This document shows positions 3,640 to 30,559 of a DNA stretch of 43,063 nt, in pieces. The notes under the pieces were generated by a model that was given only the letters and a program-made list of their open reading frames with translations, made no database searches and was not told the origin of the DNA. Within the stretch, counting starts at the first letter, position 1. Every line of letters starts with the position of its first letter. Location: positions 1 to 43,063 of IMG/VR virus record IMGVR_UViG_3300033143_005265; one strand, 5' to 3'. The translations under genes were made by a program, and so were the position numbers. The DNA comes from a virus.

Positions 3640-3756
3640 TTACTGACAAAAAACATCACATATATTGTACGACCTTATATGACACAAATCACATTTTTCA
3701 GATCCAGCATATTCAATTTTGACAGCCTCGTCCTCACCTCTATATTTTAACGACAT
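3640..3756 (-). CDS. 38-aa Cys-rich microprotein
   Basis: MSLKYRGEDEAVKIEYAGSE followed by KCDLCHIRSYNICDVFCQ: four cysteines near the C-terminus. It ends a few bases before the ribosome site of the next Cys-rich gene. The ribosome site is weak (GGGTATCC), so I rate this lower than its neighbours. The 85 bp upstream, to the next gene, contain only a short palindrome (AGAGATCTCT, 3798-3807). Confidence 0.4.
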   Translation of the reverse strand: MSLKYRGEDEAVKIEYAGSEKCDLCHIRSYNICDVFCQ

Positions 3757-3841
3757 TAAACAAAAGGATACCCATGGTTAACTCTCTAGCTAAAAACAGA
3801 GATCTCTCGATTGCGCCACATCACCGTTCGCCTGCCAGCGT

Positions 3842-25598: not shown

Positions 25599-26057
25599 CT
25601 ATGACAAAGACTCTAATGTGTTATCCCAGAAATATTCAAATTTCTCTTCAATTCCTTCAGGCTTTTTTATTGTTATTTCCATTTTTAACTTATCAACTCC
25701 TGTTATACTAGCAGAAGATTCTACAGACTCAATTATTTTTTTAGTTTTCATCCATTCAAGATCATTATTAGCGGCCTGTTCAATAATTCTTAAATTGCCT
25801 GATATTAAAGAATTCTCAATGAGAGACCGTTCAAAATTAGAATTAAATGGGATTTTATCTGCTGTGATTTCTCCAACATTTCCCCACCAATCGTCATTAA
25901 TAACTCCGGCAGGGCGTCTTTGAGCTGGCGTATTGCTTGCTAGATTTCCACCAAAAAGAGACAAGTAAATAATTGTATGAAAAGTTAAATCTGTTGCTAT
26001 CTTTCCACTTATTATTTTAAAATCTCCCCGTGTGTTATTATCTGTCAATCCGATCAT
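25599..26057 (-). CDS. Baseplate protein, Mu gp46-like (sheath initiator)
   Basis: Protein of 152 aa. GGNLASNTPAQRRPAG, the DDWWGN motif and the later DLEWMKTKKIIESVESSASI follow the GP46 family (RRGWWGD, then helix), whose members start sheath assembly. It overlaps the tape-measure stop as TAATG. In Mu it lies after gp45 and directly before gp47; here it is separated from both by fibre genes. Moderate to good confidence. Confidence 0.68.
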   Translation of the reverse strand: MIGLTDNNTRGDFKIISGKIATDLTFHTIIYLSLFGGNLASNTPAQRRPAGVINDDWWGNVGEITADKIPFNSNFERSLIENSLISGNLRIIEQAANNDLEWMKTKKIIESVESSASITGVDKLKMEITIKKPEGIEEKFEYFWDNTLESLS

Positions 26058-28009
26058 TATTCACCCACTCTTGAAAAACTTGGCTCTACAGTACTTTGCA
26101 TTGTAAAGAAGTCTTCATTTTCTTTTGTAGTTCTTAAGTCTGCGCGACCAGTATCATCTTTTATAAATAACTCTGCAGTAGATTTTGAAATGTTCTCTGT
26201 TATGCTTCTAGCAGTTTGAATTTGAGTAGAGATCACACCTATCTCTTGTTTTTCTCTTGCTTGCAATTCAGTTCTTGTTTCTGCTATAGATTCTTGAAAA
26301 CCCTTTAGCTTTTCGCCAAGAATAGGGATTTTCACGAGAGCATTTAACACAGCATTTAGAGGTGTCAATAATGCATCAGCTATTGCGGCTCCAGCTCCAA
26401 CCGAAAGAGAAACAATTCCTTGAAAAACAGATGCCATCAACGATCCAACATTTTTTATAACTTCAAAGAATTTTATGAAGAATGATGATACGGGCTCCCA
26501 ATTATCTAGAAGAACTTTTGCTAGGAGAACAAGCGGAGCAAATGCAGGCGCTAAAACTATAATCCCTGCTAAGATCAATCCAAAGTTTTCTTGAAACCAG
26601 TTAACTGCAAACTCCCAATTACTGACTAGCCAAAGCGTTGCAGCAACAAGAGCACCTATAGCAATAATAACCAGACCTATAGGATTCGCTGCGAGAGCTG
26701 CAGTGAATAACCAGGTAACAGCGGTAACAGCAACTATAGCAATAGCAAGTGTTCCTAAAACTGCAGCCATTATAGTTATCGCTTTTACAACTCCAGGATT
26801 TTCTTTTGCAAATTTGCTTACAACTCCGGCAAGATCTGTAATTGTAAAGATAACTTTCTCTAAGATAGGCTTTAAGGCATCAAATAAAGTAAGCTGCAGC
26901 GCTTCTATTGCGGAGTTCATTTTCTTTATTCTATTTTGTGTTGTGTCTCTCATCGCAGCAGCCATGCGTTTTGATTCGCCTGTTGCTCCTTCAAGAGATT
27001 TTGTATATTTCTCTATTTCTTTTTGTCCTAATTTTAATAAGTTGGTTGCTCCTGCAACGGCTCTTTTGCCGAAAATTGTAGCTATCGCGGCATTGCGTTG
27101 CACTTGTGTCATTTTGGAAGTAGATTTGTTGAGCTGTCCTATAATATTAGACATCTTTAACATTTCACCTTTGTCATCTTGTATCTCAATTCTTAATTTC
27201 TTAAGTAATTTCGCTTGTGCTTTTGTCGGTGCTTGAAGATTGAGGAACATGTTTTTAAGAGTAGTGCCTGCTTTAGTTCCCTTAATACCTGTGTTAGCAA
27301 GCAAACCAATCAACGCGCTAAATTCTTCAATGCTAGCTCCTGCAGCGGTAGCAACTGGAGCGCCATCTTTAATTGCTTCAAACATGTCTTGAATCGAAGT
27401 ATTCGCAGTTGTTGAAGTTTTCGCAAGAACATCATTTACACGAGTAAGGTTTTTAGTTAGTTGAGCAGAATCTTTAGACATTAAATTAAATGCGCCTAGG
27501 GAATCTGTTGCTATATCTGTAGCTGTTCCTAAATCCATATTTGCAGCAGTTGCAAGATCAACAGTCCCACCCAATGCGGCCATTGCTTGCTTAGAGTTAA
27601 ATCCAGCAAGTGCAAGAAAATCCAATCCTTGAGCAGCTTGAGTAGCTGAAAACTCTGTAGCTTCGCCGACTTCTTTAGCTTTCTTTTTTAAAGCATCAAA
27701 TTCAGGAGAGCCCTTTTGTATTTTATCAACAAATTTAGTAGAAGCATTTACCATTGTTTGCTCAAACTCTAAACCTTTTTTTATCGTAGATGTAAGAGCA
27801 GATTTGACCAGAAGCAAGCCCCCCGTGATTCCTGCGAAGGCTCCAATCTTACCCCCCAGCTTACCGAACTTTCCCATTTTACGATTTAGTTTCTCAGTAA
27901 AGCCACCTATTTTTCCGAATGCTTTCTTTCCATTCCTAGAAATTTTTCCAAAGACTTTTGACATTTTATCAATGCCTTTGAATTGTGTTGATACTGAAAA
28001 AGTTGCCAT
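26057..28009 (-). CDS. Tail tape measure protein
   Basis: Protein of 650 aa. Basic N-terminus, then the TP901-type tape-measure core at about 65-340 (GLEFEQTMVNASTKFVDKIQ, ATEFSATQAAQGLDFLALAG, MDLGTATDIATDSLGAFNLM), several hydrophobic segments at 405-500 (AANPIGLVIIAIGALVAAT) that enter the host membrane in this family, and a helical tail. It sets tail length and is ejected with the DNA. The ribosome site is weak (GGAAGTG); the ATG is 2 nt behind the stop of the chaperone extension, so translation is probably coupled to that frame. Confidence 0.9.
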   Translation of the reverse strand: MATFSVSTQFKGIDKMSKVFGKISRNGKKAFGKIGGFTEKLNRKMGKFGKLGGKIGAFAGITGGLLLVKSALTSTIKKGLEFEQTMVNASTKFVDKIQKGSPEFDALKKKAKEVGEATEFSATQAAQGLDFLALAGFNSKQAMAALGGTVDLATAANMDLGTATDIATDSLGAFNLMSKDSAQLTKNLTRVNDVLAKTSTTANTSIQDMFEAIKDGAPVATAAGASIEEFSALIGLLANTGIKGTKAGTTLKNMFLNLQAPTKAQAKLLKKLRIEIQDDKGEMLKMSNIIGQLNKSTSKMTQVQRNAAIATIFGKRAVAGATNLLKLGQKEIEKYTKSLEGATGESKRMAAAMRDTTQNRIKKMNSAIEALQLTLFDALKPILEKVIFTITDLAGVVSKFAKENPGVVKAITIMAAVLGTLAIAIVAVTAVTWLFTAALAANPIGLVIIAIGALVAATLWLVSNWEFAVNWFQENFGLILAGIIVLAPAFAPLVLLAKVLLDNWEPVSSFFIKFFEVIKNVGSLMASVFQGIVSLSVGAGAAIADALLTPLNAVLNALVKIPILGEKLKGFQESIAETRTELQAREKQEIGVISTQIQTARSITENISKSTAELFIKDDTGRADLRTTKENEDFFTMQSTVEPSFSRVGE

Positions 28010-28011
28010 TA

Positions 28012-28182
28012 TTATTTCACTTCCATTTCTTTATTTATTTCTTTGATTTTATCATTCCAAAAAAACAAACTGCTTGTTGTCCCGTCATCACTCAACTCTA
28101 AATCATTAATCTCTTTCAATCCGAAAGAGAATGAACTAGCGACCCCGGCAGCAATAGTATTGACAATGTCGAGGTCAGCCGT
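28012..28182 (-). other. In-frame extension of the tail chaperone behind UGA
   Basis: Directly after the chaperone's TGA (28185-28183) the same frame continues for 56 sense codons: TADLDIVNTIAAGVASSFSF, GLKEINDLELSDDG, ending FWNDKIKEINKEMEVK and TAA. It has no ATG, GTG or TTG near its beginning and no ribosome site, so it cannot easily be an independent gene. It fills the place of the T domain of G/GT-type chaperones and ends 2 nt before the tape measure. Readthrough would give a 192-aa product. A nonsense mutation in a formerly longer gene is the alternative. Confidence 0.6.
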
Positions 28183-28590
28183 TCATCCGACCATATACAT
28201 GGCCGTGAGAGGTGAGGACGTCATAAGATCAATCATATCCATTCTAGATATTAGACCTTTGTTTATTCCTGTCAATAGAGTAAGTATTATTATTGTTTTA
28301 CCCATTTCATTATCCTTTTTTGCTTGACTCATTTTCTGCATTTCACCGACAGTCAGACGGGGCTTTAGAGTTATACTATCAGTACCGTCTCCAAGCTCAA
28401 AGGCAAGTTTCTGTGTGATATTGCCTGCTTCATCAAGTGAAAAGGTCCCGTCTATAATGTTTTCTATAATAGATTCTGAGAACTCTTTATAATCTTTATC
28501 TTCTTCGATCAACCTTGGCTTAATCCTTTTTACTTCATAAGCCCAAGTTTCGAATTCTTTTATTGCCAACTCTCTACTTACTTTTTCCAT
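28183..28590 (-). CDS. Tail assembly chaperone (Mu gp41/E-type)
   Basis: Protein of 135 aa between tube and tape measure, the constant place of this chaperone. ELAIKEFETWAYEVKRIKP, LKPRLTVGEMQKMSQAKKDN, and an end helix (LLTGINKGLISRMDMIDLMT) fit the small tail chaperone family. It should coat the tape measure during tube assembly. I use the ATG at 28590 behind AGAGG; a GTG at 28599 is possible. It ends GGA-UGA-ACG, after which the frame stays open. No -1 slippery heptamer followed by an overlapping frame is seen. Confidence 0.75.
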   Translation of the reverse strand: MEKVSRELAIKEFETWAYEVKRIKPRLIEEDKDYKEFSESIIENIIDGTFSLDEAGNITQKLAFELGDGTDSITLKPRLTVGEMQKMSQAKKDNEMGKTIIILTLLTGINKGLISRMDMIDLMTSSPLTAMYMVG

Positions 28591-28609
28591 TTTCCTCACC
28601 TCTCTCTAA

Positions 28610-28999
28610 TTAAATCTTTTCTAACTTTCCAGGACCCGTAAATGTTACCGGGATATATCCAGTGTTTGAATCTGCCTTGATATCTCCCTCAATAGATCCA
28701 GACCCTTTATATATATATCCGTTAGTATGCTGCCAGGTTACAACACCAGGCTCATTTGTATCAACAAGCCCTTGCAAAAATTCCTGGTCTCCATTTTCTG
28801 GATCATATTCAAGCATTAATCCAGCTATTTCCCATGGCTTCACAGCCGACTTCGGATGTCCTGTACCATTGCCATTCATTTGTATTGTTTTTGTACGGCC
28901 GCCAACATCAACAGTGATGCTTTGATCACTCTGAACTGCAAAAGTTCTACTTCCTGCAGTAGGATGCTGTACTGTCAAATCTAATGTATCACCAGCCAT
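28610..28999 (-). CDS. Tail tube protein, Mu gpM-like
   Basis: Protein of 129 aa, beta-rich (DLTVQHPTAGSRTFAVQSD, VDVGGRTKTIQMNGNGTGHP, IEGDIKADSNTGYIPVTFTG), matching Mu-like tail tube proteins in length and pattern. It forms the inner tube inside the sheath. AGGAG before ATG. Position after the sheath gene agrees. Confidence 0.85.
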   Translation of the reverse strand: MAGDTLDLTVQHPTAGSRTFAVQSDQSITVDVGGRTKTIQMNGNGTGHPKSAVKPWEIAGLMLEYDPENGDQEFLQGLVDTNEPGVVTWQHTNGYIYKGSGSIEGDIKADSNTGYIPVTFTGPGKLEKI

Positions 29000-29011: not shown

Positions 29012-30559
29012 CTATAGTTCACCGAAATTAAAACCAGCAAATGCAGTTGTTGCACTAATTCTTGTAACTCCAGAACGTTTGTAGTGAAATGTTGTTTCAA
29101 AGCGATCCGGATTAATTGCACTTATCTGCACTTGAATACTTGCCTGAGCAAATGGAACATCTGCAATAATAGCGAGCTTCCCAAGTGTAATCATAAGATC
29201 ATCAACAATAGATTTCCAGCCGGAAGGTTTAATAACTCCATCAACTGAAACCACATCAGTATCATTTGCAATTGTTTTCCCAACAAGAAATGTCTCTTCC
29301 TGTAGTCGATAATTGTATTTCACATTAAAATCAATTCCCACAACATTTCTTACATAGCGGAAATCAACAGAAGTAGCTGGTTGAGAATCAGGTCTTCTAT
29401 AAGTAATGAAATCCTGCATGATATAGCCCTGAGATTCTGTATAGATTACAGTAGAGATACCGTTTTTCACAAGATCATCTCTATTAATGTAATTCTGCAT
29501 ATCTCCGATAGTGTCCCCTGTCGGTGCGGGAAGATCTGAATAAGTTCTATTCAGAGTTGTTCTGTGTGGTTGGCTATTAAAGATAACCGCTGATTCAACA
29601 ACAGCATTTGTAGCAACCTCATAATTATATGCCGGGCTATTAGGAGCAGGAGCGACAGCATTTGTCATATCAAGTTTTCTTCCTGTCCCAAGAGCTTTAA
29701 GTGTTGCAATAACTGACTCAGTTGTTCCAGTAACAGAAACAAAGGGTTTGCAAACAATAGCAGACCATCTACCAGTACCACCAGTATCAGGATCAGGAGC
29801 CCCATTGAATGCTTCAATAGCATCTTCGGTCTCTGTGCCGTATGTGTTAATGACTTGTGTATACCAAGTTCCACCAAAATTAGCAAGAGCTCCAGAGATG
29901 TCATTTGCTCCAGCTCCTGTTGCCATCTGTGTAGAAGCGTATGATATATCCGCCGGAACACCATTTGTGTCGATAGTAAATGTAGTATCATTACCAAGAA
30001 TACCGGCTATTTGAGATGTAAGATCAACTTTTGTTGTTCCATCTGCTGCAGTAACAGGAGCATAGATATTGCCTCCAATAGCTGCAATTATTTTTGGAAT
30101 CAATTCTGTAACTGTATCATCTGTTTCTACAACCCAAGAAATTTGTTTTCCTGAAATAGATTTTCTTCCATTGAAAACTAAATTGTGAGTTGCATTTTCT
30201 GAAGCTGTTCCAGAGGGTGTAATGTCTCCAGCAGCAGCAGTTGCACCACCGGCGTCTTCTATTGGAAAAATATCAACTGGGATAGTTCCAACTCCGCCAC
30301 CTTGAACAGGCTTAAGAATTCTAGCCATCATATGTGCTGGACTTGCCCCGAATGTGTCAAAAGCGTCTTTCTCGCTACTTATTGTAATTGGTTGGTCATA
30401 AGATGCGAAGCCCGATTGTTTCGATGTTGCAACAGGAGAGAAAGCGGCTATCCTTTGCGGCAGGAAGCGGCCCCCTTCTGAAAAATCTTTAAACCCGAGC
30501 GCATAACCAACAACCGCTGCAACAGCATCTTGAGATACTGCGTTAGATAGTATAGCCAT
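29012..30559 (-). CDS. Contractile tail sheath protein, Mu gpL-like
   Basis: Protein of 515 aa. AAVVGYALGFKDFSEGG, PQRIAAFSPVATSKQSGF, DAFDTFGASPAHMMARILKP, a VWNSQPHRTTLNR-like segment (VIFNSQPHRTTLNR), and the C-terminal FQTTFHYKRSG-like strand (FETTFHYKRSGVTRI) follow the Mu-type sheath. Its presence proves a myovirus tail. GGGGGA before ATG. One of the surest calls in the window. Confidence 0.92.
   Translation of the reverse strand: MAILSNAVSQDAVAAVVGYALGFKDFSEGGRFLPQRIAAFSPVATSKQSGFASYDQPITISSEKDAFDTFGASPAHMMARILKPVQGGGVGTIPVDIFPIEDAGGATAAAGDITPSGTASENATHNLVFNGRKSISGKQISWVVETDDTVTELIPKIIAAIGGNIYAPVTAADGTTKVDLTSQIAGILGNDTTFTIDTNGVPADISYASTQMATGAGANDISGALANFGGTWYTQVINTYGTETEDAIEAFNGAPDPDTGGTGRWSAIVCKPFVSVTGTTESVIATLKALGTGRKLDMTNAVAPAPNSPAYNYEVATNAVVESAVIFNSQPHRTTLNRTYSDLPAPTGDTIGDMQNYINRDDLVKNGISTVIYTESQGYIMQDFITYRRPDSQPATSVDFRYVRNVVGIDFNVKYNYRLQEETFLVGKTIANDTDVVSVDGVIKPSGWKSIVDDLMITLGKLAIIADVPFAQASIQVQISAINPDRFETTFHYKRSGVTRISATTAFAGFNFGEL

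Follow-up and report, generated by a model that had tools for sequence, protein, structure and literature searches.

The window analysed in this study (the whole stretch of DNA, 43,063 bases) is a viral record, IMG/VR IMGVR_UViG_3300033143_005265. The whole of the feature considered here, i.e. the gene of a putative tail assembly chaperone, an in-frame UGA, an open extension and the tape-measure gene, lies on the minus strand. The order on this strand, from 5' to 3', is tail sheath, tail tube, chaperone and extension, followed after only 2 nt (from the TAA of the extension to the ATG at 28009) by the tape-measure gene (Table 1). Translation through the UGA would give a product of 192 aa. This layout had been described in a sequence-only reading (a 135-codon gene ending in GGA-UGA-ACG, 56 further sense codons, 2 nt to the tape-measure ATG and a 192-aa extended form), and it held exactly when compared with the ORF layout. 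A second contig (L001), which is 99.98% identical to the window over 5,015 bp, contains the identical TGA, and a pattern scan for variants at the UGA gave a match in this contig only.

Table 1. Features of the tail gene region and predicted RNA elements around the in-frame UGA, in the order of the coding strand
Feature	Position	Strand	Evidence
Tail sheath protein (contractile-tailed phage)	29012..30559	-	phrog_165, E 2e-66
Tail tube protein, upstream of chaperone	28610..28999	-	phrog_4699, E 6e-32
Chaperone, short form, 135 aa, ATG at 28590	28186..28590	-	ORF layout; relatives, families, model
12-nt stretch with full complementarity to the ribosome-binding region of the chaperone gene itself (28593-28604)	28207..28218	-	Pairing probability 0.86-1.0, full-transcript fold
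Small hairpin immediately upstream of the GGA codon, CGGCCAU-GUAU-AUGGUCG	28188..28205	-	Folding prediction
Hairpin with the UGA in its 5' arm, GAUGAACGGC-GACCUCG.../...CGGGGUC-GCU-GUUCAUU	28130..28187	-	Folding prediction
In-frame UGA, context GGA UGA ACG, recoding site	28183..28185	-	Same in L001; GGR-TGA in L076 and L026
Extension, 56 aa + TAA, same frame	28012..28182	-	Homologue of the -1 frame extension of relatives
Second hairpin, directly 3' of the UGA hairpin, CUCUUUC-GGAUU-GAAAGAG	28111..28129	-	Folding prediction
Tape-measure protein, next gene downstream, ATG at 28009	26057..28009	-	PF10145, E 3.6e-48; several PHROG tape-measure families

The short form is encoded between the tail tube and tape-measure genes, and so occupies the position expected of a G/GT-type chaperone. 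It shows 46% and 42% identity to the short forms of two related loci, L076 and L026, respectively, and its match to phrog_4648 (E 4.6e-9) is shared by all 16 members of the family that were scanned. The match to PF10109 (Phage_TAC_7) was below the cut-off for the window (E 0.007); 5 of the 16 members, including the window, match this family, the best with an E value of 2.5e-4. An AlphaFold2 model of the short form (pLDDT 92.8) retrieved viral predicted structures in a Foldseek search, one of them annotated as "Tape measure chaperone" of Burkholderia phage Mica (E 2.5e-4). Searches of the PDB by sequence and by fold gave no match, and chaperone searches in phages, in plasmids and in a first genome scan yielded nothing useful, nor did a query for "relatives" of a virus record. 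The assignment rests more on the position of the gene and on the shared two-part layout (a short form plus a C-terminal extension) than on any family score. This layout is present in the window and in its relatives, although it is a layout only and no protein has been observed. The other hallmark of the G/GT type, an extended form produced by frameshifting at a slippery site, is missing from the window, which has no slippery heptamer and a closed -1 frame.

Few uses of programmed frameshifting are as conserved as the one by which tail chaperones are made in a short and a long form at a fixed ratio. According to a review of the subject (PMC5009743), -1 frameshifting of this gene pair is widely conserved in long-tailed phages except T4, while HSTV-2 likely uses a +1 shift. 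For T4-like phages, a non-frameshift mechanism is reported to have been proposed in a 2022 title cited in the PRFect paper.

UGA serves as an ordinary stop codon in the window. The 61 listed ORFs end with TAA (30), TGA (18) or TAG (13). Several of the TGA stops form 4-nt overlaps with the start that follows, the other listed TGA stops are each followed by 13 open codons or fewer, and the longer open stretches past other stops are simply the next gene. The earlier claim that UGA is not globally recoded was thus upheld by the 18 of 61 ORFs ending in TGA and by the 4-nt overlaps.

The frame that follows the UGA of the chaperone gene has the properties of a coding sequence. With the local base composition, the chance of finding 56 open codons at this place is about 0.009. 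A profile built from seven extensions of the subgroup matched the extension of the window with 32.9 bits (E 1.4e-9 among 640 window ORFs), while it did not match the other two frames, and none of 2,000 shuffled sequences scored as well. The similarity begins about 4 codons past the UGA (window LDIVNTIAAGVASSFSF versus LDISNMVA-SVASTFGF of L076), which indicates that the protein continues right after the UGA; this fits readthrough and speaks against skipping. A same-frame extension behind the stop with conserved coding, a feature expected of any readthrough candidate, is shown by the homology to the extensions of relatives. An alignment joining short forms and extensions was uninformative.

Independent translation of the extension from an internal start was considered and rejected. 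Its frame has no ATG or GTG ahead of the C-terminal part. The single candidate, a TTG at codon 22 ahead of the region of the conserved FFW motif, lacks a good ribosome site, and initiation at this codon would omit the conserved helix. The absence of a usable start or ribosome site, as claimed previously, was thereby confirmed.

About 190 related loci were fetched by scans with tape-measure and chaperone alignments, and a profile-based census was performed on those in which both parts were detectable, with one frame call per distinct locus. The extension was found in the -1 frame in 109 loci and in the +1/-2 frame in two (L025 and L098); frame 0 occurred only in the window and its near-identical counterpart L001. 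A classification by ORF layout agrees with this census. Of 107 loci, 85 have an in-frame X_XXY_YYZ heptamer among the final 45 nt of the short form, and 100 have either this heptamer or a looser four-base slip motif. The last 45 nt of the short form of the window contain no heptamer, the sole looser match being TCTT, 39 nt upstream. A residual -1 or +1 shift in the window was also rejected, since both frames close early (the -1 frame two codons past the UGA and the +1 frame after 22).

Several loci of the family deserve separate mention. L098 (3396-4005) and L025 (around 3660-3830) have their extension in +1 (or -2) rather than -1, which indicates that the direction of recoding has changed more than once in the family. 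In seven loci with the -1 layout (L005, L014, L016, L042, L058, L061 and L090), the last 45 nt contain no X_XXY_YYZ heptamer and no obvious slip motif of four bases, and several of these loci share CTTTTAATGGAT directly ahead of the stop. Long open frame-0 stretches follow the chaperone stop in L005 (1742-1918), L075 (3788-3955) and L134, where the family-like extension is in -1; these stretches are probably by-products of the overlapping coding frame.

The nearest relatives of the window were particularly informative. Three loci (L076, L077 and L164, hereafter the L076 group) are identical over 620 nt and represent one virus recovered in three datasets. The ends of the short forms coincide in the L076 group (...YLVG-TGA), in L026 (...YFLG-TGA) and in the window (...YMVG-TGA). 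The L076 group and L026 thus have the same 0-frame GGR-TGA stop, but their homologous extension is in the -1 frame, behind a T-rich slip site. The slip codons are AGT-TTT-TAT in the L076 group and TAT-TTT-TTG in L026, and the window has ATG-TAT-ATG at the equivalent place. Moreover, the window has gained about 7 nt right after the TGA (TGA-A-CG plus six more), as a result of which its extension falls in frame 0. In a tape-measure tree the window and L076 are sisters (support 0.988) nested among -1 lineages, and frame 0 is therefore the derived state. The loss of the slippery run together with the move of the extension to frame 0 is what would be expected if the -1 route had been replaced.

The two outcomes named in advance as refuting this reading were checked, the second one through the homology of the extension only. 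Homologues with a sense codon at the site were not found, and L076 and L026 retain the UGA as the stop of the short form. Random sequence and an error of assembly or sequencing at the UGA can be rejected, because the extension is homologous to those of the relatives, the same site is present in L001 and the slippery run is absent as well.

The UGA is located in the 5' arm of a predicted hairpin. Together with its 3' neighbour this hairpin has a folding energy of -30 kcal/mol (z -3.4, none of 200 shuffles as strong), and it is among the strongest of 2,150 segments scanned on the strand. When the fold was compared with 500 synonymous recodings based on the genome's own codon usage, the z value was about -5, and none of the recodings was as good. 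When the codons already present were permuted, the effect was weaker, with z at about -3 (-1.4 if only the first hairpin is considered), which indicates that part of the effect is due to local G+C-rich rare codons at positions -12 to +14. The small 5' hairpin lies in this same run of codons that are rare for the genome. A search of Rfam gave nothing useful. Elsewhere on the strand, the most extreme folding z values (-5.4 and -4.9) were recorded at about 1923 and 2263, in or close to a region where long ORFs are few.

Hairpins at this place were also predicted in the family, with a mean z of -1.4 and with z <=-3 in 16 of 108 loci, including L076, L026, L019, L060 and L009. Since strong hairpins occupy the same place in several relatives that have a slip site, the hairpin of the window is probably an inherited frameshift stimulator, which has been kept and now acts on the UGA, although stimulation itself has not been shown. 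For a stimulatory 3' context, another feature sought in readthrough signals, this strong hairpin is a candidate on the basis of its predicted fold alone. The role of hairpins as stimulators of plain readthrough in bacteria is not well established.

The 12-nt stretch complementary to the ribosome-binding region of the chaperone gene corresponds to codons -11 to -7 ahead of the UGA. It may provide feedback on the gene's own translation or be a matter of chance. Little weight is placed on this pairing, which had looked like a component of the recoding signal, because L076 does not share it and the window contains ten 12-mer inverted-repeat hits within 450 nt.

These observations suggest that programmed UGA readthrough has likely replaced the -1 frameshift in this virus, giving a short and a long chaperone. 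The sequence layout, the homology of the extension, its frame in the relatives, the loss of the slippery site and the presence of a predicted RNA structure are shown; synthesis of the long protein, its rate and the residue inserted at position 136 are inferred. The proposal rests on sequence alone and on one lineage represented by two nearly identical contigs, with no expression data, an unknown host and no usable dN/dS, the one close copy being almost identical and the next relative too distant. It also counts against the proposal that the window has no tRNA gene capable of suppressing UGA. In the proposed mechanism, most ribosomes would stop at the UGA and release the 135-aa short form. A minority would insert a residue at the UGA, probably by near-cognate decoding (e.g. 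by tRNA-Trp), and would continue in the same frame through the 56 codons to give the 192-aa form, comparable to lambda gpGT or P2 E+E'. The UGA hairpin, placed as in the frameshifting relatives, would slow the ribosome or hinder termination, and in this way may set the ratio of the two products. UGA suppression in place of a frameshift, the central claim of the sequence-only reading, is therefore supported and still an inference; the minus-strand location, the stable UGA hairpin and the evidence for an inherited frameshift stimulator were not part of that reading.

In a bolder version, the ancestral frameshift element has become a structure-dependent readthrough element: the slip site was lost, a short insertion shifted the extension to frame 0 and the inherited hairpin, which now folds over the UGA itself, programs the readthrough that determines the chaperone ratio. 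This version may or may not be correct, and we see no strong ground to prefer either answer. If true, one gene would have changed its recoding mechanism, with the states before and after the change both kept in relatives. No case of stop-codon readthrough in connection with tail chaperones was found in the open-access literature searched, which is no proof of absence.

The most serious alternative is that the extended form is no longer made, i.e. that the insertion of about 7 nt broke the -1 frameshift and that the extension is a young relic. In favour of this view, only a single lineage is known, 56 codons are short enough for a recent lesion to have stayed open, and expression data are lacking. 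Nevertheless, we consider it unlikely. The slippery run, which lies inside the translated short form, has been lost too; the homology of the extension is still significant though the short form is only 46% identical to that of the nearest relative; the strong hairpin and the rare codons round the UGA have been retained; and accidental openness has the low probability given above. Furthermore, only one in three insertion lengths would bring the extension into frame 0, as this one happens to do, and lambda is known to need the long form for its tails (PMC5009743).

Selenocysteine insertion at the UGA, with the hairpin acting as a bacterial SECIS element, is very improbable. The hairpin does begin at the UGA, and bacterial SECIS elements lie directly downstream of this codon and carry a conserved loop G (PMC1088965). 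However, a simple uninterrupted-stem scan of the region 14-41 nt past the UGA, for a loop G in the first two positions and at least 4 uninterrupted pairs, found no such element. Neither Cys nor Sec is present in the relatives at the corresponding position, and relatives with similar hairpins exist that do not decode the UGA.

Equally hard to defend is bypassing in frame 0, with take-off at GGA-UGA, landing at a GGA in the loop of the second hairpin and 20 codons skipped. It is suggested by a gene 60-like arrangement (PMC5009743), namely a GGA take-off codon next to a stop, one hairpin at the take-off site and another 5' of it, and a matched in-frame GGA. However, the codons that would be skipped form the best-conserved part of the extension in comparison with L076, so that there is no non-coding gap of the gene 60 type, and an in-frame GGA somewhere in 56 codons is unremarkable. 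Bypassing would leave out the peptides TADLDIVNTIAAGVASSFSFG and TADLDIVNTIAAGVASSFSFGLK, and either of them in the long product would exclude it. Finally, reassignment of UGA to a sense codon by the host, so that only the 192-aa form is made, can be all but ruled out: some phages and hosts do recode UGA or UAG, but the use of TGA by 18 of 61 ORFs, the 4-nt stop/start overlaps and the few open codons (<=13) after the other TGA stops contradict it, and relatives end their short form with the same UGA.

If UGA readthrough does operate here, the locus offers a testable bacterial case of whether an RNA hairpin can program it. Frameshift predictors seek a change of frame and gene callers would annotate the short form only, and similar cases may therefore go unseen.

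The arrangement resembles lambda G/GT, P2 E/E+E' and the Mu-type genes (PF10109 and kin) in its position between tube and tape measure, in a predicted pair of short and C-terminally extended forms with one start, and in an extension that ends at the tape-measure start; the extension would be the functional equivalent of lambda T and P2 E'. It differs from them in that the extension is in frame 0 behind a UGA, not in -1 (or -2/+1), and in that there is no slippery heptamer. The phrog_4648 family, in the sample studied here (Shewanella phage SFCi1, Vibrio phage VP16T, Flavobacterium FCOV phages and IMG/VR contigs), comprises direct homologues with the same gene order, but all of the named phages have the -1 layout. 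T4 gene 60 and the window have in common a GGA with a stop right after it, hairpins both at the site and 5' of it, and a matched downstream GGA, whereas the putative gap in the window encodes conserved residues and resumption would be in frame 0. The coat/A1 pair of the RNA phage Q-beta also involves readthrough of an in-frame stop to give a minor extended protein, although this is a virion protein for which no frameshifting ancestor is known. A parallel for two recoding routes to one short/extended pair comes from retroviral Gag-Pol, which is produced by UAG readthrough in murine leukaemia virus and by -1 frameshifting in most other retroviruses (PMC8310308), and where an RNA structure 3' of the stop stimulates recoding. 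The genes are unrelated, the ribosomes are eukaryotic, the codon is UAG and the structure is a pseudoknot 8 nt downstream; yet, if our interpretation is correct, the tail chaperone would join Gag-Pol as a case in which selection preserves the ratio of two products while the decoding trick that achieves it is replaceable.
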